Shown here piece by piece: positions 18,762 through 56,679 of a stretch of DNA of 64,000 nucleotides. Location of the stretch: NCBI GenBank assembly GCA_009702755.1, contig WLHL01000004.1, forward strand, positions 1 through 64,000, read 5' to 3'. Position 1 is the first letter of the stretch, and the number at the start of each line of letters is the position of its first letter. Position numbers and translations under genes: made by a program. The notes under the pieces were generated by a model. That model was not told the origin of the DNA and searched no databases. It saw nothing but the letters and a program-made list of their open reading frames with translations. The DNA comes from Actinomycetota bacterium. Its GTDB lineage: Bacteria; Actinomycetota; Acidimicrobiia; Acidimicrobiales; Ilumatobacteraceae.

Positions 18762-19016
18762 ATGGCCAATATGTCAATCAGTCAAGCCCGAGAGCAATTG
18801 CCAGCCGTCATTGAGTTGTGCCAAACCGAAGCCGTCGTCCTCGAGCGATACGGGAAACCACAAGCGGTCATCATCAGTTACGAGCGTTACGACGAATTGA
18901 TGACGGCTCTTGAAGACATTGAGGATCTTGAGGCAATTGCCGAGATTGAGGCTGACATCGAGAAGAACGGGACTATTCCCTGGGAAGAAGTACGGCGGGA
19001 CTTGGGCATCGAATGA
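18762..19016 (+). CDS. Phd/YefM-family antitoxin
   Basis: 84 aa, MSISQAREQLPAVIELCQTEAVVLERYGKPQAVIISYERYDELM; overlaps the toxin gene by 4 bp. Confidence 0.88.
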   Translation: MANMSISQAREQLPAVIELCQTEAVVLERYGKPQAVIISYERYDELMTALEDIEDLEAIAEIEADIEKNGTIPWEEVRRDLGIE

Positions 19017-19276
19017 CTCGCTACACAGTTGAGTTCTCGCGAGCCGCAGAGAAGGCACTCGCCCAACTTCAGCCACAAATACGCCGCCGAGTGGATGGTG
19101 CAATACAGGTTCTTTCCATTGATCCGTATCCACCGAACTCGCGGCCAGTGAAGGGCACGAGCACATTCCGCTTACGTGCTGGTGATTATCGAATCATCTA
19201 TCGAGTGGACCACGGTGTGCTTACGGTGATCATCTTTGACATCGGGCACCGGCGCAATATCTATCGCAAGTTCTAG
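19013..19276 (+). CDS. RelE/ParE-family toxin
   Basis: 87 aa, YTVEFSRAAEKALAQLQPQIRRRVDGAIQVL...RPVKGTSTFRLRAGDYRIIYRVDHGVLTVIIFDIGHRRNIYRKF. Confidence 0.9.
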   Translation: MTRYTVEFSRAAEKALAQLQPQIRRRVDGAIQVLSIDPYPPNSRPVKGTSTFRLRAGDYRIIYRVDHGVLTVIIFDIGHRRNIYRKF

Positions 19277-19323: not shown

Positions 19324-19399
19324 GCCCAGGTAGCTCAGTCGGTAGAGCAACGCACTCGTAATGCGTAGGTCGTGAGTTCGATTCTCATCTTGGGCTCCA
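19324..19399 (+). tRNA. tRNA-Thr (anticodon CGT)
   Basis: GCCCAGG/CTTGGGC acceptor, AGCTC D-arm, anticodon stem-loop ACGCA-CTCGTAA-TGCGT, T-arm GTGAG-TTCGATT-CTCAT, encoded CCA; 76 nt. Confidence 0.95.
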
Positions 19400-19857
19400 G
19401 TTTCAAAACATCAGTTGGCTTCAAGTTCGGCAACGCACGACCGGGAATGAACATTCATTGGAATTGATGGGAGATGACAAATCCCGAACCGCGGGCGCTT
19501 CTCGCCAAAGGATTGATGATGGCATGAGATTGGAAACTAAGACTGCTTCTTTCTTCGGAATAACCACCCGAAGTCACGGGGCTTATTGAGAAGTCACTCG
19601 GTAAAGTCCATTCGACGATGGTCAGCCATCTAAATACATGCTTCGACTCCCTATCAAAATCTGATCAAAGCAGTCTTAATTAGATTGACATTCAGAAACC
19701 AACTAAATGATTTTGGAGAAGAACGGGTACTAAGTTTTCTGGACAATCTCTCTTAAACAAAAGATCATCTGCCCGCTACAAGCTCAATTTTCGTCAAATC
19801 TGACCTTTGGAATACTTGACTATTGTGGGTACCGATAGTGACTTCTGAGGGGGAGAA

Positions 19858-22800
19858 ATGGCGAAATCAAAGGAAGTGCCAATTTCTGGATTGTCTACGC
19901 TGAAGTCCCCTCGACTTCACCCTTTCCCCCAACTTTTTCGTTCCATAACGTCAGCCTTGGAATTTCTGGAGAGATATGCCAATGACGAGAAAAATCTCGC
20001 GACCAGTGGCAACGAAGTTCTTCTCACCGTTATCCATCAAGCTCATCTTCAGTTGTCATCACTAAATGGCAGACCAGAACAAAGCGAATCCTGTGAATGT
20101 TGGACCCTGTGTTCTGACATGTGCAGTTATGAAAACCACAGCCACAGCAGCGACGAATACGAGAAGAATTCCGGAAACTGCAAGAAGATAATCCGCTGTT
20201 ATCGATCAAATCCTGACAGTTCTGACCATGTTGTCTTGAGAAAAAAACTCACACACAAGTTGACTAGGACGTTTCTTTCCCAACGCCGAAGCCAGGATCT
20301 TGAGACAAACGAGCGTGAGTCATTTCTTTCCATTCTTAGTGTTCTGGTTGCGGTGTTGCTTGATTCCGACGAGTGTTCGATGAAAGCAACTTTGCGTACA
20401 CCTAGTTCACAAATTCGTCGACACAGATTCAGGCGTGCTCTGAAGCTCCAGATACACCACTATCTCGAGCCAACAATACGAAAAGCAGAATTCATCACAT
20501 TTCCCGACCAGCTCGGCGCCAATCACCAATGGCGTCTCTGCCATGCACTTGAGGCATTTCTTCGTACATCCCCATCACGTCGAAAGTTTCCGAAGCGACG
20601 AACGGCAGTGGTCTGTGAGCCTCTCGTCCAGTCGGCTGTCGACAAAATCACATCATGGCAAATTCAACGTCAGGACACCGATGACAACGGGGCCTTCAGA
20701 AGCGGAGACAATGGCCAGCCGGCGATAAATGTCACGATTGCTGCACTTTTCGCCATGCTTCAATTTGAGCAAATTCTGAAGTTGAACTACCCAACACAAA
20801 GAATTGATGAAGTCGCTTTGCAGGTTGCAGTAATGCCTGTACCTCGGAAAATTCTTTCAATCAAGATCCCAGCCAATCTCCAGAGATTCGGACTGCGTGG
20901 ACCAGTAGAAACAGATGTGGCGGGCGCATGGGCTTCACTACTTTTCGCCTCGTTCTGTCTAATCGCTGGCATATTCATGTTTCCCAAACCAAACACAGCA
21001 CCCATCTCAGCCACAACATCAACTATCGCGCTAGCAAGTGCCACCACAACCTCTGTAATGACGAGTGCCAGTAATTACGTAGCCGACATACGTCCCAACA
21101 CTTCCGAGTTTTCGATCGTGATGAAATCTCTAATCGCGATATCCGTCATCAGTTTCGGCTCAATTGCCTTCTACCTAATCAGCCAGGCGTTTGCGAGACG
21201 TCGGTTTTCGCTACTCGGAGGCGAGACCGATTCAAATCGATTCCGTCAATCCATCGTGAATCTCCAACAGATGCGCGAGTCATTTATTCTCTCAATAGCT
21301 AAATCGATTCAGGAACAAATTGAGAGTCAGAAGTTCATTCCCCCTGATCTCGCCGCACGAACTATTAGCGAATTAGTTCGTAGTGGGTATTTCTCTACTA
21401 GCGAGAACCTAAGCAATTCAGGGGCGAAGATGCGACAAGCCACTCTCAATGGTCTTGTGAATTCTCTCTCAGTCAGAGATATGGACGACCCGATATTGGG
21501 AGTGAGATACACCAACAATGTCGACAGATCACTCGTCCTAGCAGCACTTGTCGATCTGTTCTCACTTTCCTTCTCCGGTGAAGAATTAGGTGCTCCTAAA
21601 TTATTTGGGGTCACACGCACCGAAATCATTGACTCTGCCCATCACCAAATCTCAGTATTAGTCAAATCTCAGGAGTCAGGCAACGAAAGAGCGGGCGGAT
21701 GGAGAATTAACGATAAGGATTCTCGTGCTTCGGTCTTTGCAACGGCCCAAGTGGTACGTACCCTCACGCGGATTGTTGATTCAAAGAATGCCACCGATCT
21801 CCGTTTTCAAAAAGCCCTGACTACATATAGCTCAGAATTGGAACCCCACAATAAGAGAGAAGAGATTTCGATTGCGTCTATCAAAGATGCCGTTGCATCG
21901 GGAGTGACCTACTTGAGGTCAGACCTATTGGAAAAGATTGACAGAGAATCGAAGCCTTGGTCGATAGCGACCGGTACAAGAACTGAGATCTATAGGGTCG
22001 CACTCCCCTTGATTGCATTGTCTGAACGTGCAATCTTCCGAGGAAAACACGGAGCAGACGAAGTTGAGATTCGTGCCGCGATTGAGTGGATACAGAACTC
22101 GGTTCTCGACCCCGCATGTCCCGACCGTGAAGACCAGGTCTTACAACGTGAGACCGATGTTCAATCAAAATACAAGTCCTTTGTGCATAGACATTCTGTG
22201 TCGCGTCACGTAGTCGAGGGAATCCTCTCTGGTGAGATTTCTCTAGAGAAATCATTCCTGCAAAGTCAACTTGGCCCGATGGGCACAAGTGGTCGCCCTA
22301 TCACCTCACGCCTATTCCAGAGCGCTGTCCAGAGATGTATTCTTGCTGTTCAGCACCTTTCGCTTCGTCCAGCAAAAGGGGACATCACCCTTCTCAGTGA
22401 CCAAGTCGATGCACTCGCAATTGCCAATCGTTGTAATGAGTACATCGATAAACACTTGACTGCAGGGCAAATCTGGATTGAATACTGCAGATCTGCTGAA
22501 TTTTTGTCCGCTCGACCACTTCCACTCCTCCACGTTCTACCTCGACAATCACGAAACAGGCAGTCGCTGTTAAGACCGGTAGTGGCAGCTGTTCAGCTCA
22601 ACAGGCCTGCACGGCGATTCCTGCTTGGGTCAGTCATCCTGGGAGTGATACTCACTGCAGTCAGTGGTTTCATACTGGATCCACAGAATTACTCGCTGCA
22701 GGAATGGCGGGCCTTAATGGCCATAGCGAGCCTGCCTCTTGTTGTACCGCTAGCAGCAGTCTTTCAATTCATAACTAAACCGAAGACAATAAGCTCGTCA

Positions 22801-22863
22801 CTACGCTGGTCCATCGGTGTTGTTGCATCGCAATTTTTTTCTATCACCGGGCTGTTCAAGTAG
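19858..22863 (+). CDS. 1001-aa multi-TM protein with alpha/alpha-toroid (terpene-cyclase/prenyltransferase-repeat)-like motifs
   Basis: Good RBS (gaggggga) before ATG; TM segments near aa 360-380, 420-445 and at the C-terminus; motifs such as GGWRINDKDSRASVFATAQVVRTLTRIV. Confidence 0.6.
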   Translation: MAKSKEVPISGLSTLKSPRLHPFPQLFRSITSALEFLERYANDEKNLATSGNEVLLTVIHQAHLQLSSLNGRPEQSESCECWTLCSDMCSYENHSHSSDEYEKNSGNCKKIIRCYRSNPDSSDHVVLRKKLTHKLTRTFLSQRRSQDLETNERESFLSILSVLVAVLLDSDECSMKATLRTPSSQIRRHRFRRALKLQIHHYLEPTIRKAEFITFPDQLGANHQWRLCHALEAFLRTSPSRRKFPKRRTAVVCEPLVQSAVDKITSWQIQRQDTDDNGAFRSGDNGQPAINVTIAALFAMLQFEQILKLNYPTQRIDEVALQVAVMPVPRKILSIKIPANLQRFGLRGPVETDVAGAWASLLFASFCLIAGIFMFPKPNTAPISATTSTIALASATTTSVMTSASNYVADIRPNTSEFSIVMKSLIAISVISFGSIAFYLISQAFARRRFSLLGGETDSNRFRQSIVNLQQMRESFILSIAKSIQEQIESQKFIPPDLAARTISELVRSGYFSTSENLSNSGAKMRQATLNGLVNSLSVRDMDDPILGVRYTNNVDRSLVLAALVDLFSLSFSGEELGAPKLFGVTRTEIIDSAHHQISVLVKSQESGNERAGGWRINDKDSRASVFATAQVVRTLTRIVDSKNATDLRFQKALTTYSSELEPHNKREEISIASIKDAVASGVTYLRSDLLEKIDRESKPWSIATGTRTEIYRVALPLIALSERAIFRGKHGADEVEIRAAIEWIQNSVLDPACPDREDQVLQRETDVQSKYKSFVHRHSVSRHVVEGILSGEISLEKSFLQSQLGPMGTSGRPITSRLFQSAVQRCILAVQHLSLRPAKGDITLLSDQVDALAIANRCNEYIDKHLTAGQIWIEYCRSAEFLSARPLPLLHVLPRQSRNRQSLLRPVVAAVQLNRPARRFLLGSVILGVILTAVSGFILDPQNYSLQEWRALMAIASLPLVVPLAAVFQFITKPKTISSSLRWSIGVVASQFFSITGLFK

Positions 22864-22865
22864 TC

Positions 22866-23789
22866 ATGGAAACTTATGAAGCAGTTGTCTGGGGAGAGCC
22901 TTCGCTTGACACTGTCGTTGCTTTGGTCGGTGATGAAAAACGCGGTTCTCGAAATCACGCAATGATCAATGATGATGTCGGTGGTTCGGGTGCTAATACT
23001 GCATCCTCTCTCTCTTTATTAGGCGTGAATACGGCACTCATTGGCTTTCTCGGCTCAGATCAAACAGGGCAAAACATCGAGGCAGAACTGAGAAGCCGCA
23101 GAATTTCCCTGATTATGGGTAGGACGCCGACAAACAGAAGAACTGTCTCGCTAGCGCGCTCGGATGGAACTCGGACTATGTACGGGACCGAGGGAGACCA
23201 ATACTCATCGTCGGAAGACTTAACCGCACAAGTGAGATTGCTCCGATGCAACTGTTTTCATGTTTCACTTACGTCGTTACTTCGGTCCAGGCACTCATTG
23301 ATTTACCGCACTATTGAGCATCTTCGTGCTTGTGGTGCAGTTATCTCGATGGATGCCGGAAACGACGTCGAGATCAGGTCCAATTCCGCCGAGATTCCAA
23401 AAATTTTCAATCAAATACAACCAGACATTGTGTTCGCAAACGAAGAAGAGGTAGACGCACTCAGCTCGACCTCATTGGACTTGCGTTCCTTGCGGATGCT
23501 CGTAATCAAGAAAGGTTCCCGTCCGTGTGAGATTCAGCGAAAAGATGGTGAATCCCTTATCGTTCCGATCCCGCGCAAGACAGTTGCAGTAGACACCACG
23601 GGAGCAGGAGATGCATTTGCTGCAGGCATGTTGGGTGGACTCATACGAGGGCTTAACCCAACTATGAGTTCGACACTCGGTCACCTATTGGCTAGCGCGT
23701 GCATCCGTGAAATTGGGGCAACCATCCGCGATAAATCAGCAATCGACGCAGCCCGTCAATTCCTTGAGAAAAACAGTCGAACTAGATGA
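22866..23789 (+). CDS. PfkB-family carbohydrate/nucleoside kinase
   Basis: N-terminal NDDVGGSGANTASSLSLLGVNTALIGFLGSDQTGQ and C-terminal signature VDTTGAGDAFAAGMLGGL. Confidence 0.9.
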   Translation: METYEAVVWGEPSLDTVVALVGDEKRGSRNHAMINDDVGGSGANTASSLSLLGVNTALIGFLGSDQTGQNIEAELRSRRISLIMGRTPTNRRTVSLARSDGTRTMYGTEGDQYSSSEDLTAQVRLLRCNCFHVSLTSLLRSRHSLIYRTIEHLRACGAVISMDAGNDVEIRSNSAEIPKIFNQIQPDIVFANEEEVDALSSTSLDLRSLRMLVIKKGSRPCEIQRKDGESLIVPIPRKTVAVDTTGAGDAFAAGMLGGLIRGLNPTMSSTLGHLLASACIREIGATIRDKSAIDAARQFLEKNSRTR

Positions 23790-24336
23790 GGTTGGAAATG
23801 ATATGGATCTCATCCCACGAATTCATCACTGGTACCTGCTCGTCCCCAACATTCAATCTCGAACCGAAGTAAACGTGGGTCCATGAAGGACGAACCAATC
23901 CTGTGATGCTGAACTTGTCGTCAATCAAAATCTTGCCGACGACAAGAGTCTTGTCCGAGGCAAGGATGTAGCGACCTTCAAATTCAGGGAAGTTCCTGTC
24001 AAGCCAAGATGTCTTTTCGCTTGCACAGGTTGGATTTTCTCGCCTTGGCTTAGTACAAACAACGGGAATCGCGCCGAAACTAAGAAGGCTCTTGATGCCC
24101 GCAGAAGCACCTCGTACCACTTCAAGGCTGTCATAGAACCCTGGCAAGTTTCTCTCGAGATCAACTTTGTCGGCAATTTCCTGTCCGTATGCGAGCAACA
24201 AGTCTTCGCGTGTGCTCGACGTCTGCATCTTGAATCGTGCTGGATCCTCTCCGAGAGACTTCAAAATGCGACAGATACCAGCTCTGTAGTCGGCAAGCGG
24301 CCCATCCTGATCGACGAGGACAATCGCATTTTTCAT
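23782..24336 (-). CDS. HAD-superfamily 5'(3')-deoxyribonucleotidase-like protein
   Basis: MKNAIVLVDQDGPLADYRAGI (DxDG), IPVVCTKPRRENP, LIDDKFSITGLVRPSWTHVYFG; likely ATG at 24336 in ORF 23782-24375. Confidence 0.7.
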   Translation of the reverse strand: MKNAIVLVDQDGPLADYRAGICRILKSLGEDPARFKMQTSSTREDLLLAYGQEIADKVDLERNLPGFYDSLEVVRGASAGIKSLLSFGAIPVVCTKPRRENPTCASEKTSWLDRNFPEFEGRYILASDKTLVVGKILIDDKFSITGLVRPSWTHVYFGSRLNVGDEQVPVMNSWDEIHIISNLI

Positions 24337-24495
24337 ACACAAATCGTACCCACCTTCGTCTTTTGAGAGAGTCACTCAATCACAACCCTGTCACTTGTTC
24401 CGGACTTTAGGGCTTCGATAAGTAACTCAATCAAGTCGTTTCTGTGAAATTCTGGACCAGGGCATGGCCTATCTTTTACTCAAGTACCCGTGATT

Positions 24496-24530
24496 CGTAG
24501 GTCGTGAGTTCGATTCTCATCTTGGGCTCC
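24496..24530 (+). repeat. tRNA-Thr 3'-end direct repeat 1 (att-like)
   Basis: cgtaggtcgtgagttcgattctcatcttgggctcc, 35/35 identical to 19364-19398; degenerate similarity continues upstream to about 24484 and past the end (ggtttc vs agtttc). Confidence 0.95.
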
Positions 24531-24558
24531 GGTTTCGTGACAAGTCCTTAATGAGGAA

Positions 24559-26019
24559 TTGAGAAGCAGATACCATGCGCTTGTGAAGCGCATCTTGATC
24601 TTGGTTTCTGCATTGCTGGCGAGCGCACTTGTTTACGGGAGTTCAACACCAATTGCATCGGCAACTGACAGCACTCCACCGGTTGGAAGTTGGCAATGGT
24701 GTAGCGACACAGTCAAGAACGGCTGCATCGAAGCTGTCACCACCATCAGCCCCGAGAAAGTTGAAACCACTTACAGAACAGCTGCCGAGTTGCCATCTGA
24801 ACTGAAGGTCTCAGCTACGTGTTCGTCAAACAGTTCTGTGAATACGTGTGACACCAATCGATATGTCACCCGAGATGATGGTCAATGCACTGAGACATCA
24901 ACCTGGGGTGGTCGCTTCACAACGCCAAGCATTGAGATCGATGCTCAATGGCCCGGAATGGTTGGTTGGGAAGTTCGTATTCGGTTCTCCACCGGAAACT
25001 TCAGAGCCGCATTTTCAATCGGATACGGAATTACGGCGACGCAAACAACCCGTGATGAAGACGGCACATACACCTTTACTCTCACTACATTCATCGGTAA
25101 GTCCTACAGCGCGATGATGCCTCCAAGCGTCACCTCACTAATGGGCACTCCGCAATACTTCGCCGCAATGAACGAGTGGATCAAGACTGCAGTTGCAACG
25201 TCAGAGCAAGATGCTGCCCACGTTCAGGTATGGCCCCGCGACCACCTGTTACGAAACTCTTCTCCAGTTCCAACATTCAATAACGCCACCTCAACCTTGC
25301 CGTTAGCTCCAACTGCTAGTGGTTGCCAGTATTACCCCTTTGATGGTGCGTTTGCTGAAGCGAATGCTTCATCTTTTTCATGGTCATACTCATCTGGAAA
25401 CTTGTCTCCCACCGTTCCTAACGTTCTGAAGTTTGTCGCGCAGGCTCCTCACTACCTCCCACGAAAGGGAACTGAGCCCTTACAAGTCATGCCCGCTCGC
25501 GTGCAGGTTTTCTTGCCAACCGCTTACTTTTCTGCCCTCGGTTACGCATCACTGTCAGAGTTCAATGGTTCGTCCTATTCCGTGACCACTGAGGACGGGC
25601 AAACAACAACTCCCACCGTCACTGCACGAGACAATGGCATTCTCATAAATCTTGGGTTGCAGCACTATTCCGCCCCAAACCCTTCAGTGACATTCGTGCC
25701 CAAGGGTGCAGCAATTGGCACAACCGACTCGTTGGCATCGACGTCACCTCTGCCCGCATTGGTCACCACCACAACTACAGCTCCAAAAGTCTTCTCAGCT
25801 CTCAAGAAACTTGGGAAGAAAAAGAGCGCACCACTTTCTTCCTTCATCTCCTATTCCTCACCTGGAACAAAGACTTGGAAAGTTAGTGGTGGCTGCCGAA
25901 TTGTGAAGTCAAAACTTCAGGCCCCATCTCGTGCCGCTAGCTGCAAACTGACCCTGACAGTCAGAAACGCAAAGAAGAAGATCGTTGCAACAAAATCGAA
26001 CACCATCCGTGTTCGGTGA
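24559..26019 (+). CDS. secreted protein of unknown function
   Basis: 486-aa ORF; signal peptide (KRILILVSALLASALVYGSSTPIASA), Thr-rich linker, basic C-terminus; TGA stop lies inside repeat 2; start may be internal. Confidence 0.7.
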   Translation: MRSRYHALVKRILILVSALLASALVYGSSTPIASATDSTPPVGSWQWCSDTVKNGCIEAVTTISPEKVETTYRTAAELPSELKVSATCSSNSSVNTCDTNRYVTRDDGQCTETSTWGGRFTTPSIEIDAQWPGMVGWEVRIRFSTGNFRAAFSIGYGITATQTTRDEDGTYTFTLTTFIGKSYSAMMPPSVTSLMGTPQYFAAMNEWIKTAVATSEQDAAHVQVWPRDHLLRNSSPVPTFNNATSTLPLAPTASGCQYYPFDGAFAEANASSFSWSYSSGNLSPTVPNVLKFVAQAPHYLPRKGTEPLQVMPARVQVFLPTAYFSALGYASLSEFNGSSYSVTTEDGQTTTPTVTARDNGILINLGLQHYSAPNPSVTFVPKGAAIGTTDSLASTSPLPALVTTTTTAPKVFSALKKLGKKKSAPLSSFISYSSPGTKTWKVSGGCRIVKSKLQAPSRAASCKLTLTVRNAKKKIVATKSNTIRVR

Positions 26020-26043
26020 GTTCGATTCTCATCTTGGGCTCCA
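26016..26043 (+). repeat. tRNA-Thr 3'-end direct repeat 2 (att-like)
   Basis: gtgagttcgattctcatcttgggctcca, 28/28 identical to the tRNA 3' end. Confidence 0.92.
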
Positions 26044-26055
26044 TTTGCTCACGAA

Positions 26056-28395
26056 TCACCACGTGTGAATATGAGTACCCGCAGACAACGCGTAGACATT
26101 TCCATTCGGAAGCTCTAGTTCACATTCGGTTCCAGTTGGAACATCACACGTGATAGTGCCTACACCATTCTCAAGTAACCACTCCACACCAATACGTCCG
26201 TTGGGCGAATCATGGTGCGTGCGAACCCACGAAACACCAGCACCAGGTCGTGGTGCCACCCGAAAGCGTCGATATCCAGGCTCTTGAATCCTCAGACCAG
26301 CAACGTATTGATGAAGAAAAGAAATCACTGCTCCCTTGCTGTAGTGATTCAAACTATGAGTTGCCCTATCGCCGACAATTCCGTCCCAGTCTTCCCAAAT
26401 TGTTGAATATTGATGTGTCATGTACATCCACGACGGTTCTGTGTCCTGAAAAAGCAGGGAATATGCGGTGTCTAAGTGACCGTGATCAGCAAGCACAGGA
26501 AGAAGCATCGGAGTTGCAAGAAATCCTGTTCCAAGATGCATGTCTGCCTCTTCAATCAACCGAACAAGGTCATCGGCTGTTTGCTGACGTAGCGAATCTG
26601 GAACAAGTCCAAATGCAAGTGCACGACATAAATTCGCCTGTGTGCGCGGTGTCAAAGCACCCTCGTCATCAATGAATTCGGCCCGCCATGCATCAAGAAC
26701 ATTTGCGGCTAATTCTGAATACCGTTGGGCTTCGTCATTCTTCCCAAGAATGCTGCTGACGTGTGCAAGTTGATCTGCTGAGCGATACAAATACGCAGTT
26801 GCCACTGCGCCGTGATCCTGATTGCCAAGACTTGCAACATCCGTTTCAATATCAGCTCCTGGTTCTAACCACTCGCCGTAATGCCAACCGCTATCCCATA
26901 AGAATCGTTCATGAGGTAGTGGATTCGGCCGTTGCGCTTCTCGTACTGGATGACGTCGCCCCTCGGCTCTACGTGCGGCGAATTCAACCCATTGAGTCAT
27001 TGACTCGAATTGCACTGCAAGCATGTCGGTTCGCGCAGTGGCCCGGTACAACTCCCACGGAACATGTACCGCGGCATCACCCCATCCGGAAGAACCGTGA
27101 CTTCCTCGCCACACTGGCGCACCCGAAGATGGGTCAGGGACAATGCTCGTTACTTTGCCATCGGGAAATTGATCAGCTGCAAGATCTCGCATCCACTTTG
27201 CTGACCAATCAAATACGTCGTACAGATACGAAGCTGTCTCAACATAAATCTGCCAATCTCCGGTCCATCCTGATCGCTCCCGTGTTGGACAGTCGGTAGG
27301 AATCTCGCAAGCATTTCCACGAAAACTCCAATCGGCAGCACGATGAAGTCGATTGATGCGCTCATCGGAACACTCAAAATCTCCCACTCGTTGAAGATCG
27401 GTGTGGACCACGACACTGACTATTGATGCAGGATCGAAGACGCCATCAATTCCGTCCACTTCCACAAAACGAAAACCCTTAGTGCTGTGCCGTGGTTCGA
27501 ACACTGTGTTGTCACCTGCCGAATAAACACGATCTGTTTGGAAGGGAACATTGCGGGGCTCCGAAAATGCTGCATCAGCAACATTCGACTGCGTTACTTC
27601 GCCTTCGGAGTTTGTCCATTCTCCATATTTCAACGTGACTTCGTTACCCTCAGGTCCCAGTCCAGACAATCTCACCCAACCATTGCTGTTCTGTCCAAAA
27701 TCAACCACGTGTCGTCGCGGTGCAATTTGAGTAATTGAAACTGGTGACAGTTCTTCTATCTGTCGCACTGGCGGACCAAGAACCTCACACAAGTTGTCCA
27801 TCGAATAATCAGCAACAGTGACTTGGTCCCAAGATGTACGATCAGTACCTGCATCACACCAACCATGAACTCTTCTACGTAAATCGTGCGTTTCACCGGC
27901 AATGAGATCTGCGGCAAGAATGTGGCTGGGTGTAGAGCACCACTCACCGTGTGTACAAATGCTGATTTGTTGGCCATCTGCTAGCTCAATCATTAGCTCT
28001 GCAAGAAAAGAAATGTTGGGCCCGTACGCGTCAATCTCTCTGATCACTCCGTGTTGACCCCGCCACCATCCATCACTCAGAATTGCACCTATTGCATTGT
28101 TCCCAACATGCAGCAGATCAGTCACATCAAACGCATGCACTTGTAGACGCTTGCGGTACGCGGTAAACCCAGGAGTTAGTTCAATGTCGCCAACCCGCGA
28201 TCCATTGATAAACGCTTCATAAACTCCATGTGCCGTCGCCCACAGCCGAGCCGAAACGACATGGGAAGGTACGACAAACTCGCGTGCGAGGTGATACGCA
28301 GGACGATGTATCGCTGGCGAATCCACTGATTCAACAGGCTCAATCCATGAAGCTGTGAAGGCGGTCGGTGTGTTCGAACTACGACTTTCGGTCAT
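26056..28395 (-). CDS. GH78-family alpha-L-rhamnosidase
   Basis: ARLWATAHGVYEAFINGSRVGDIELTPGFTAYRKRLQVHAFDVTDLL, ACEIPTDCPTRERSGWTGDWQIYVETASYLYDV, LNHYSKGAVISFLHQYVAGL. Confidence 0.93.
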   Translation of the reverse strand: MTESRSSNTPTAFTASWIEPVESVDSPAIHRPAYHLAREFVVPSHVVSARLWATAHGVYEAFINGSRVGDIELTPGFTAYRKRLQVHAFDVTDLLHVGNNAIGAILSDGWWRGQHGVIREIDAYGPNISFLAELMIELADGQQISICTHGEWCSTPSHILAADLIAGETHDLRRRVHGWCDAGTDRTSWDQVTVADYSMDNLCEVLGPPVRQIEELSPVSITQIAPRRHVVDFGQNSNGWVRLSGLGPEGNEVTLKYGEWTNSEGEVTQSNVADAAFSEPRNVPFQTDRVYSAGDNTVFEPRHSTKGFRFVEVDGIDGVFDPASIVSVVVHTDLQRVGDFECSDERINRLHRAADWSFRGNACEIPTDCPTRERSGWTGDWQIYVETASYLYDVFDWSAKWMRDLAADQFPDGKVTSIVPDPSSGAPVWRGSHGSSGWGDAAVHVPWELYRATARTDMLAVQFESMTQWVEFAARRAEGRRHPVREAQRPNPLPHERFLWDSGWHYGEWLEPGADIETDVASLGNQDHGAVATAYLYRSADQLAHVSSILGKNDEAQRYSELAANVLDAWRAEFIDDEGALTPRTQANLCRALAFGLVPDSLRQQTADDLVRLIEEADMHLGTGFLATPMLLPVLADHGHLDTAYSLLFQDTEPSWMYMTHQYSTIWEDWDGIVGDRATHSLNHYSKGAVISFLHQYVAGLRIQEPGYRRFRVAPRPGAGVSWVRTHHDSPNGRIGVEWLLENGVGTITCDVPTGTECELELPNGNVYALSAGTHIHTW

Positions 28396-28521
28396 TAGCC
28401 GAGAATAGTTTGCTTTACACGGGTTTTCAGTTGTGCACGACTTTCAGCCGCACGAACTTGACAGGAAAATGTGAATCTCCTGGTACGACGGTGCTTCAGT
28501 CTCATGCACTAGTGAAACGGC

Positions 28522-28553
28522 GGTCGTGAGTTCGATTCTCATCTTGGGCTCCA
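28522..28553 (+). repeat. tRNA-Thr 3'-end direct repeat 3 (att-like)
   Basis: ggtcgtgagttcgattctcatcttgggctcca, 32/32 identical to the tRNA 3' end; degenerate similarity upstream to gcact at 28506. Confidence 0.94.
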
Positions 28554-28573
28554 TTTGCAACTAGAACTTCTAC

Positions 28574-29407
28574 ATGACAACTGCTGTAGTTCTCGCCGGA
28601 GGTGGCCTCACCGGCATCGCGTGGGAGATAGGCGTTCTTCTTGGGCTACGAAACAATGGTTTCGACATTGTTCGCGATGCTGACCTCATTATCGGTACAT
28701 CAGCCGGCTCTGTGGTGGGAACACAACTCTCACAAGGACTTGACCTTTCTGATCTCTTCGTACGTCAACAACAACCTGACGAAAATGAAATCTCACCTCG
28801 CATTGATCTTGAGGTCATGACGCAGGTGTACAGCCAGATGCGTGGCGGTGGAACACAATCAGATGAACAACGTCAACAGATTGGACAAATCGCTCTCAAC
28901 AATTCTTTTGTTGATTGGCCCACTCGACGCGCGGTAATTGAAGGGCGCGCGAAGACCGATACATGGCCTGATCGAAACTTGATAGTCACCACTATTGATG
29001 CCGAGTCCGGTGAGTTCCGCACATGGTCAAAGAATGATGGTGTTGGTCTCATTGACGCAGTCGCCAGCAGTTGCGCCGTTGCCGGCATTTGGCCGTGTGT
29101 ACCCATCAATGGTCGCATGTACTACGACGGTGGTTTTCGCAACTCCGCAAACGCATCACTCGCTGCCGGATACGAAACGGTGTGGGTACTGGCACCACTT
29201 TCGGGCGATGCATCCCCTGCTGTCGAAACCGAAGTGCAAGAACTTCGCAACCAAGGTGCGAATGTTCACTACATCACCACCGATGACACTGCCAAGCAGG
29301 CAATGGGCCTGAACTCGCTTGACCCACGCGTTCGTGGTGCTGCCGCAGAACAGGGCCTTCGCCAGGGACATCAATTTGCTGAATTGCTCGGCAGAATGAA
29401 GCCGTGA
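28574..29407 (+). CDS. patatin-like phospholipase family protein
   Basis: VLAGGGLTGIAWEIGVLLGL, GXSXG in IIGTSAGSVVGTQL, DGG in YYDGGFRNSANASLA. Confidence 0.9.
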   Translation: MTTAVVLAGGGLTGIAWEIGVLLGLRNNGFDIVRDADLIIGTSAGSVVGTQLSQGLDLSDLFVRQQQPDENEISPRIDLEVMTQVYSQMRGGGTQSDEQRQQIGQIALNNSFVDWPTRRAVIEGRAKTDTWPDRNLIVTTIDAESGEFRTWSKNDGVGLIDAVASSCAVAGIWPCVPINGRMYYDGGFRNSANASLAAGYETVWVLAPLSGDASPAVETEVQELRNQGANVHYITTDDTAKQAMGLNSLDPRVRGAAAEQGLRQGHQFAELLGRMKP

Positions 29408-30243
29408 AAAAAGCTCTTCTGCTGTTCCCCCTTCTCTTCGGACTCGCGGCATGCGGATCCACCTCTGACTCCGCTGCGACAACATCGCCCACAACTGTCG
29501 CCATTGCTTCCACTGTGCCGATGGCAGCAACAACCACGGTTCCCACGTTCTTGAATCCTGCATCAGGTGAAAAAGAAATCGCTTGTGACAATAAAGCAAT
29601 CGGCGCAAACTTTGGCGAGAAACTGCGACTCGAGAAGTGCACCGCTACCTGGGCATTCGGCGACACCGACCGCGACAAATGGAATTGCCCCGATGACGGT
29701 TGCACACAGACACGTCTTTTCCATTTGGTGGACACCAAGTGGGTCAACACCACTACATGCCAACGCTCTCTTCCGCTCACACGATTCTTTATGAGTTGCT
29801 ACGTTCCCGATGTTGGCGCTGCCACCCTCAAGGAAATCCCACCCAGTGATGTCGCGTGCATTATCTGGCCGGCGAACAAATCCTTGAAGTACGTCGCAGA
29901 GACTGGCTGTGAAGCAGATCTTGCTTCCATCACTGCCTCACTGAATGAAAAGTGCACCGGATACTTCGCCGCAAGTGAACTGCCGGTTGAGAAGTGTGAT
30001 CAAGGGCTTGCGGTGCAACTCATGCAATCACGGCTGCGTAAAGCCGGATACAGCACAAGTGTTGATGGCTACTACGGACCAGCGATGGCACTATCTGTCT
30101 ACAAATTTCAGAAAGAGAAAGGTCTTTTGCAGAGCGGCGCTATTGATGCTGCAACGTGGAAGGCGCTCGAACCTGATCAATCACAACTGCCAGGTACTGA
30201 TACAAACGCCGACGGATTAGTCACTCCTGATGAGCTTCGATAA
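29404..30243 (+). CDS. lipoprotein with C-terminal peptidoglycan-binding-like domain
   Basis: Lipobox LFGLAACGS; LMQSRLRKAGYSTSVDGYYGPAMALSVYKFQKEKGL. Confidence 0.75.
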   Translation: MKKALLLFPLLFGLAACGSTSDSAATTSPTTVAIASTVPMAATTTVPTFLNPASGEKEIACDNKAIGANFGEKLRLEKCTATWAFGDTDRDKWNCPDDGCTQTRLFHLVDTKWVNTTTCQRSLPLTRFFMSCYVPDVGAATLKEIPPSDVACIIWPANKSLKYVAETGCEADLASITASLNEKCTGYFAASELPVEKCDQGLAVQLMQSRLRKAGYSTSVDGYYGPAMALSVYKFQKEKGLLQSGAIDAATWKALEPDQSQLPGTDTNADGLVTPDELR

Positions 30244-52531: not shown

Positions 52532-53499
52532 TGAGTCTGTTGAAGAACAAAGTGGCAGTAGTGACCGGAGCGGGAAGTGGCCTCGGTCGCGAGTATGCGT
52601 TTCTTCTTGCTTCTCATGGTGCGCGTGTTGTCGTCAATGATTACGGCGCAAACGTGTTGGGCGAACACATTGGCGAGAAGTCTGCCGACATTGTGACGCA
52701 AGAGATCATCTCGCGTGGCGGCTCTGCGGTCGCGAACTACGACAGCGTTGCTACATGGAACGGAGCACAGTCCATTATTGAAACTGCACTTAGTAGTTTC
52801 GGTCGCATCGACATCTTGGTGAACAATGCGGGGAACAATCGTCCGTCATCGCTGGTCAAGCTTTCAGAAGATGACGTCACGAGCCATCTCGACATTCATC
52901 TCAAAGGCACATTGGCAACAAGTCACTTTGCGGCAGCACATTGGAACGATGTCGGACCGGAACCTCACCGTGCAATCATCAACACCACATCTGCTGTTGG
53001 TCTTCACCCAACTATCGGCGGTGGTGTGTACGCAGCAGTGAAATCTGCAATTGCAGCTCTCACGGTTAGTCATGCACAAGAACTTGCATCACTCGGTGTG
53101 CGTGTGAATGCGTTAGCTCCGGCAGCACGCACTCGTATGGTGCAGGAATCTCCGGGAGTACTTGCGATGATGCCCGAGTCAGATGGCTTTGATCGACATG
53201 CGCCCGAACACAACGCGCCGCTTGTTGCCTATCTCGCCAGCGAGTTGTGTCGCTTCACAGGCAGAGTGTTTGCGATCGAGGGCCCAGATGTTGCGATCTA
53301 TCGTCCATTCCAAGTGGAACAGGATTGGTCAACAACAGGCGGTGCATGGACTCCAGAGACTTTGGCGGACGCATTTGCGGAAGCCGAACAGCATGTGGAC
53401 TGCCAAGCGTTTTTCCCCGGTGGTGTTGTGAGCAACAACGTTCCGCCGAAGCGCACCATGCGTGCGTTAGATGAAGTGGCGCGCTCGGCAGGGCTCTGA
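52531..53499 (+). CDS. short-chain dehydrogenase/reductase
   Basis: VAVVTGAGSGLGREYAFLLASHGARVVVNDYG, LVNNAGNNRP. Confidence 0.92.
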   Translation: MSLLKNKVAVVTGAGSGLGREYAFLLASHGARVVVNDYGANVLGEHIGEKSADIVTQEIISRGGSAVANYDSVATWNGAQSIIETALSSFGRIDILVNNAGNNRPSSLVKLSEDDVTSHLDIHLKGTLATSHFAAAHWNDVGPEPHRAIINTTSAVGLHPTIGGGVYAAVKSAIAALTVSHAQELASLGVRVNALAPAARTRMVQESPGVLAMMPESDGFDRHAPEHNAPLVAYLASELCRFTGRVFAIEGPDVAIYRPFQVEQDWSTTGGAWTPETLADAFAEAEQHVDCQAFFPGGVVSNNVPPKRTMRALDEVARSAGL

Positions 53500-56603: not shown

Positions 56604-56679
56604 TGGCGCGCTCGGCAGGACTTGAACCTACAACCTTCTGATCCGTAGTCAGATGCTCTATCCATTAAGCTACGAGCGC
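56604..56679 (-). tRNA. tRNA-Arg (anticodon ACG)
   Basis: GCGCTCG/CGAGCGC acceptor, TCTGA-CTACGGA-TCAGA anticodon arm, encoded CCA. Confidence 0.95.

Follow-up and report, generated by a model that had tools for sequence, protein, structure and literature searches.

How three short stretches of DNA came to lie one behind the other downstream of a tRNA gene, each closed by a copy of the end of that gene, is the question raised by a locus in a genome of the Ilumatobacteraceae, a family of mostly freshwater actinobacteria. The window, i.e. the whole stretch of DNA analysed, comprises 64,000 nucleotides (contig WLHL01000004.1). The genome itself (G000) is 85% complete. The locus is likely to represent an integration hot spot, or additive genomic island, at the tRNA-Thr(CGT) gene of one genus of the family, with integrase-less units being moved by tRNA-specific integrases acting in trans.

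A tRNA-Thr gene and three copies of its 3' end

According to a preliminary description of the window, a full tRNA-Thr gene is followed by three copies of its 3' part in the same orientation, with 35, 28 and 32 exactly matching nucleotides, and these numbers were found to be right using ARAGORN, exact matching and shuffles (Table 1). The longest exact tRNA match is 35 nt, compared to 13 nt in 200 dinucleotide shuffles of positions 19400-30000. The start-to-start spacings of the tRNA and the three copies (5132, 1512 and 2510 bp) also confirm the division of 9.2 kb into cassettes of about 5.1, 1.5 and 2.5 kb. That all copies end at the tRNA 3' terminus holds for copies 2 and 3, which reach position 76, but not for copy 1, which stops one base short of it, at position 75 (CCG, not CCA). 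A degraded tRNA match extends 5' of the exact runs to about tRNA position 28-31 in copies 1 and 3, and is lacking in copy 2. The genome-wide search for the 27-nt core that had been proposed returned four exact occurrences in G000, all at the array, and none for the reversed-pattern control in the same genome.

Table 1. Features of the tRNA-Thr(CGT) locus, in window positions.
Feature	Position	Strand	Evidence
tRNA-Thr(CGT), integration target (attB/attL)	19324-19399	+	ARAGORN; similar tRNA sequence in 61 of 61 genomes searched
Unit 1, 5.1 kb, three genes	19400-24495		ORFs, Pfam
1001-aa protein of unknown family (unit 1)	19858-22863	+	Family searches without match
PfkB-family sugar kinase (unit 1)	22866-23789	+	PF00294, E=9e-32
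NT5C-like 5'-nucleotidase (unit 1)	23782-24375	-	PF06941, E=9e-11
tRNA-Thr 3' copy 1	24496-24530	+	Exact tRNA 41-75, 35 nt; degraded match from ~31
Unit 2, 1.5 kb, one gene	24531-26015		ORFs, copy positions
486-aa protein of unknown family (unit 2)	24559-26019	+	ORF
tRNA-Thr 3' copy 2	26016-26043	+	Exact tRNA 49-76, 28 nt
Unit 3, 2.5 kb, rhamnosidase cassette	26044-28521		94.5% identical to G001, flanks 72-76%
Alpha-L-rhamnosidase, Bac_rhamnosid domains (unit 3)	26056-28395	-	PF17389, E=4e-94, and three further rhamnosidase domains
tRNA-Thr 3' copy 3, distal end of array	28522-28553	+	Exact tRNA 45-76, 32 nt
Patatin-like gene, first of right flank	28574-29407	+	Same place in G012 and G003

Gene content of the units and their flanks

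As described earlier, two of the three units hold a single gene: ORFs and Pfam searches gave one gene each for units 2 and 3, and three for unit 1. The genes are oriented +, + and - in unit 1, + in unit 2 and - in unit 3, and the G+C content of the units (48-51%) is lower than that of the flanks (53-54%). The stop codon of the 486-aa gene in unit 2 falls within copy 2, and its product is predicted to begin with a signal-like hydrophobic stretch. Family searches of the cargo with PADLOC models found no defence function, the patatin-like gene beyond the array gave only weak matches, to phospholipase effectors, and a scan for sigma-70-type promoters returned fewer sites than in shuffles.

Upstream of the tRNA lie genes which, read by eye from their proteins, we take to be topA, tmk, holB and a DoxX-like gene. 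Homologues of the 486-aa gene are located directly upstream of tRNA-Thr in G001 and G014. In the window this spot is occupied by a pair encoding a Phd-type antitoxin and a ParE-type toxin (18762-19276, + strand); the upstream side is also variable.

Turnover at the same site in related genomes

The tRNA region was examined in 24 further genomes, most of them of the same genus; some of the family searches covered a sample of genomes, and counts derived from these are lower bounds. A left anchor, topA-tmk-holB-tRNA-Thr, recurs across the genus. The right anchor is a conserved gene block starting with a peptidoglycan-binding protein, followed by what are presumably a sulfatase, a hydrolase, a MarR-type regulator and a sigma factor, and it recurs where contigs extend far enough. 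Between the anchors, different genes are found in nearly every genome, and at least one partial copy is present downstream of tRNA-Thr in 10 genomes, G000 included. Scoring of cassette presence and absence between the repeats, as had been suggested, showed that the contents vary even among close relatives: the flanks of G000, G012 and G023 are about 91-97% identical, yet their units differ. In G012, with flanks 94-97% identical to those of G000, unit 3 is absent and nothing aligns to units 1 or 2 beyond the tRNA copies, homology stopping at 19402 and resuming at 28560. The exact empty junction between tRNA-Thr and position 28554, which the preliminary description had named, was not seen among the relatives' genomes. 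In G003, homology to the window takes up again at 28553, on the final base of copy 3, and G022 is close to an empty site, with a right-anchor gene about 66 bp after the tRNA.

An assembly chimera or repeat artefact is exceedingly improbable as the source of this pattern. The genomes seem to be fragmented assemblies from metagenomes, and contigs of several relatives end at tRNA-Thr, but the array lies in the interior of a 71-kb contig, and the structure of unit and borders is the same in the independent assemblies G001, G017 and G023. Two contigs titled 'Bifidobacterium breve' (L037, CAMBPP010000161.1; L052, CAMCZG010000033.1) bear an Ilumatobacteraceae-type tRNA-Thr, and these titles are probably wrong.

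Transfer of the rhamnosidase unit

The claim that the tRNA 3' copies are recombination boundaries is upheld both by this variation between copies and by unit 3, which is shared with distant genomes precisely between them and at differing positions. Between G000 and G001, identity is 94.2% over the stretch that begins at tRNA position 49 and ends with the far copy (94.5% without the copies), compared to flank values of 74.0% (holB), 76.4% (sulfatase gene) and 72.2%, and to 67-76% over most of the xerC locus, which is unlinked. Among G000, G001, G017 and G023, identity of the rhamnosidase ORF is 88-95%, while holB is 69-73% identical for all distant pairs. Slow evolution of the rhamnosidase is not the reason, because its fourfold-degenerate sites are 68-84% identical in distant hosts, versus 40-48% in core genes, topA agreeing with holB in this respect. 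The unit is the first of the array in G001, the second in G017, G023 and G190 (the latter belonging to another genus) and the third in G000. Judged from these comparisons, unit 3 demonstrably moves as a unit, and does so between distantly related lineages, reaching a second genus.

The conservation of the flanks across the genus would also allow homologous recombination in flanking genes to swap whole allelic regions, the tRNA copies then being incidental. This is quite unlikely as a general account and for unit 3 it is largely refuted, as the jump from about 74% to 94.5% identity between G000 and G001 falls exactly at the tRNA copies and not in the flanking genes, and as shared units occur in differing orders; such recombination could still act on larger blocks.

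A gene encoding a 95-aa protein is likewise associated with the site: of its 12 copies, spread over 11 genomes from three genera, nine are placed directly after tRNA-Thr, two directly after a partial copy and one elsewhere. Near this last copy (L158, G234:C76) are two near-identical copies of an apparent 3' end of another tRNA, about 1.2 kb apart (at 140 and 1326). For units 1 and 2, mobility is suggested by their borders; in the case of unit 1 the borders are what speaks for it, because its largest gene, that of the 1001-aa protein, has no relative in the other genomes of the family (222 searched).

Integrases at the same tRNA

A search of the array for integrases found none, and that for integrase remnants gave only a chance-level match, in the right flank. 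G000 has three tyrosine recombinases: XerC, XerD and, on another contig, an unrelated one. XerC and XerD are present in nearly all genomes of the genus, and another tyrosine recombinase in only a few. One of these few is G014, in which a 372-aa integrase is located 1.2 kb downstream of tRNA-Thr(CGT), at a contig end. Its relatives in G123 (45% identity) and G189 (34%) also lie downstream of a tRNA-Thr(CGT) adjoining topA, the distance to the tRNA in the three genomes being 0.1-1.9 kb, and G163 carries a broken integrase remnant next to its tRNA-Thr, with about 78% identity along 60 aa. With integrases or a remnant at tRNA-Thr in four genomes of the family, the site is therefore the target of a real integrase group; other relatives of the G014 integrase (in G117 and more genomes) reside beside other tRNAs. 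No relative of it was found in G000, at 85% completeness. The third tyrosine recombinase of G000 (L093, G000:C32:4204-5553, - strand; 449 aa), encoded on a 15.7-kb contig that also shows an apparent DNA methyltransferase start, did not reach the search threshold as a relative of the G014 integrase.

As the array lacks an integrase, and as integrases or a remnant lie downstream of the same tRNA in four genomes, mobilisation in trans is the best explanation. Small elements with an attachment site that reproduces the 3' part of tRNA-Thr would insert at the tRNA. As each insertion would restore the tRNA and deposit a copy of its 3' end at the distal border, units would accumulate in tandem. The resident units, having no recombinase, would be moved by tyrosine integrases specific for tRNA-Thr and supplied by occasional integrase-bearing elements, and they may travel together with neighbouring units. 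A vehicle would presumably carry them from cell to cell; no conjugation module or genes were seen in or near the array, and viral contigs searched with the 27-nt core, a wider tRNA-Thr 3' pattern and the G014 integrase gave no match.

The remnant in G163, the degradation of the copies and the description of CIMEs as decayed elements (PMC7563491) would also fit a different history, in which the units are what deletions in place have left of larger islands once equipped with an integrase, the copies being fossil and the units immobile. Such a history is possible, if doubtful, for the locus as a whole: it is fully compatible with units 1 and 2, but unit 3 has recently moved whole, integrase-less and with both borders.

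The attachment site

In the freshest copies, identity to the tRNA starts sharply at positions 28-31, on the 5' side of the anticodon stem, and runs to the 3' terminus. A sharp start at the anticodon stem is the pattern left by integrases that cross over in the anticodon arm, which would place the crossover point of the mobilising integrases there. In G000, by comparison, the 27-nt core of T-arm and acceptor is exact in all three copies and the 20 nt upstream of it are degraded or absent, a profile that is biased since the copies were found via this core. Either a second site of shorter length or renewal through later events could account for it.

This profile, together with the single-gene units and a long XerC form of about 446 aa that is widespread in the genus, might point to a dedicated integron-like system in which a host chromosomal recombinase (XerC/XerD or another) shuffles cassettes at the 27-bp core. 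We regard this as very unlikely: besides the bias in the copy profile, XerC and XerD stand in ordinary housekeeping contexts, no integron integrase model scored above its cut-off, the gene orientation is mixed, and the family has integrases sitting at the same tRNA-Thr. A conserved 446-aa recombinase considered as a dedicated cassette recombinase was rejected, being XerC in a comM-dprA-xerC-fliA-rpsB context (the neighbouring genes, as read from their proteins, presumably being comM, dprA, fliA and rpsB).

A related reading is that the T-arm/acceptor end serves as a site of about 27 bp for many one-gene integrase-less units, which a shared tRNA-Thr-specific integrase would stably shuffle in trans. 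It is unlikely; if true, it would make the locus functionally analogous to an integron, the tRNA serving as its platform, and integration would also rewrite the 3' half of the tRNA, as the distribution of T-stem types suggests. These types are interleaved on the holB tree, with at least three changes forced by well-supported branches, and in G017 and G023 the copy closing the unit of the 95-aa gene has the 'GGG-type' T-stem of other lineages while the host tRNA is of the 'GAG-type'. A partial tRNA-Thr copy at a contig end (L083, G031:C54, about 29302-29352) has a T-arm matching the tRNA-Thr of another genus (G123), and is either a cross-genus copy or part of a mis-binned contig. A recurring sequence near ATTTGCAGCAAGGGTTT follows several copies and some tRNA ends (e.g. 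L038, L039 and L056), before unrelated genes, and may represent the arm that the element contributes to the attachment site.

Relation to known elements

The array is best read as tandem accretion of att-flanked integrase-less elements (CIME-like) in an additive genomic island, a kind of island already described from other bacteria. As in such islands, the content is variable at one conserved tRNA locus among relatives, a direct repeat of the tRNA 3' end stands at the distal border of units, in 10 genomes counting partial copies, and an inserted unit, here unit 3 only, has been horizontally transferred. The literature search for tRNA islands of Ilumatobacteraceae found no report. The preliminary statement that tRNA islands are normally large and integrase-bearing was too strict, as tandem units that are small and lack an integrase have been published from the ends of tRNA or tmRNA genes in Ca. 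Actinomarinales, Ca. Methylopumilus, Dehalococcoides and streptococci (PMC7771536, PMC10872708, PMC3146451, PMC7563491).

In Ca. Actinomarinales, also Actinobacteria, tRNAs are targets of small cassettes with a partial tRNA direct repeat distally and reported transfer between genera (PMC7771536). Several tRNAs in an envelope-sugar island are involved there, whereas here one tRNA-Thr site with other cargo is used in a freshwater family, and a border-to-border identity contrast is available for a single-gene unit. The additive fGI-2 of Ca. Methylopumilus at tRNA-Lys, with the last 20 bp of the tRNA repeated and a size of 330 bp-42 kb and 1-63 genes (PMC10872708), is similar in its recurring tRNA 3'-end copies and variable size, but concerns another phylum and tRNA, the identity block here being longer (28-48 nt). 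The ssrA islands of Dehalococcoides also lie in tandem between copies of the 3' end of an RNA gene, and 15 of 31 lack an integration module and were proposed to be cis-mobilizable; they differ in the tmRNA target, a Ccr-type recombinase and their larger size (PMC3146451). Streptococcal CIMEs are att-flanked, lack an integrase, measure 1.2-13 kb and occur in tandem with integrase-bearing elements (PMC7563491). The units of the array similarly have att sites on both sides and no recombinase or conjugation genes of their own, but CIMEs are by definition decayed ICE/IME, and an ICE/IME ancestry of the array, where no conjugation genes were seen, would be hypothetical. Tycheposons, as outlined in PMC10872708, are tRNA-targeted, cargo-carrying elements of plankton, 4-200 kb in size and encoding a tyrosine recombinase; the units here share the tRNA target, but are mostly smaller and no recombinase was found among them.

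The likeness to mobile integrons consists of the tandem small units that each end in a recombination site. In the strict sense the integron-like array proposed earlier could not be sustained, as no integron integrase was found (the XerC, XerD and other recombinase of G000, 85% complete, fall below the integron integrase cut-off), the site is a tRNA 3' end, and the genes, which in an integron would mostly be single and point the same way, are of mixed orientation, with three of them in unit 1.

For uncultured freshwater actinobacteria, the locus provides a well-resolved case of single genes that pass between species and between genera, their borders being exact and a resident recombinase lacking, and, with a candidate integrase family and a defined site named, trans-mobilisation of minimal units becomes directly testable. 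Elsewhere in the window, an exact 16-nt copy of the 3' end (positions 61-76) of a tRNA-Arg(ACG) gene (56604-56679, - strand) occurs at 53477-53492 on the same strand, 3.1 kb downstream (E about 0.001), and may represent a second instance of this kind, though a weaker one.
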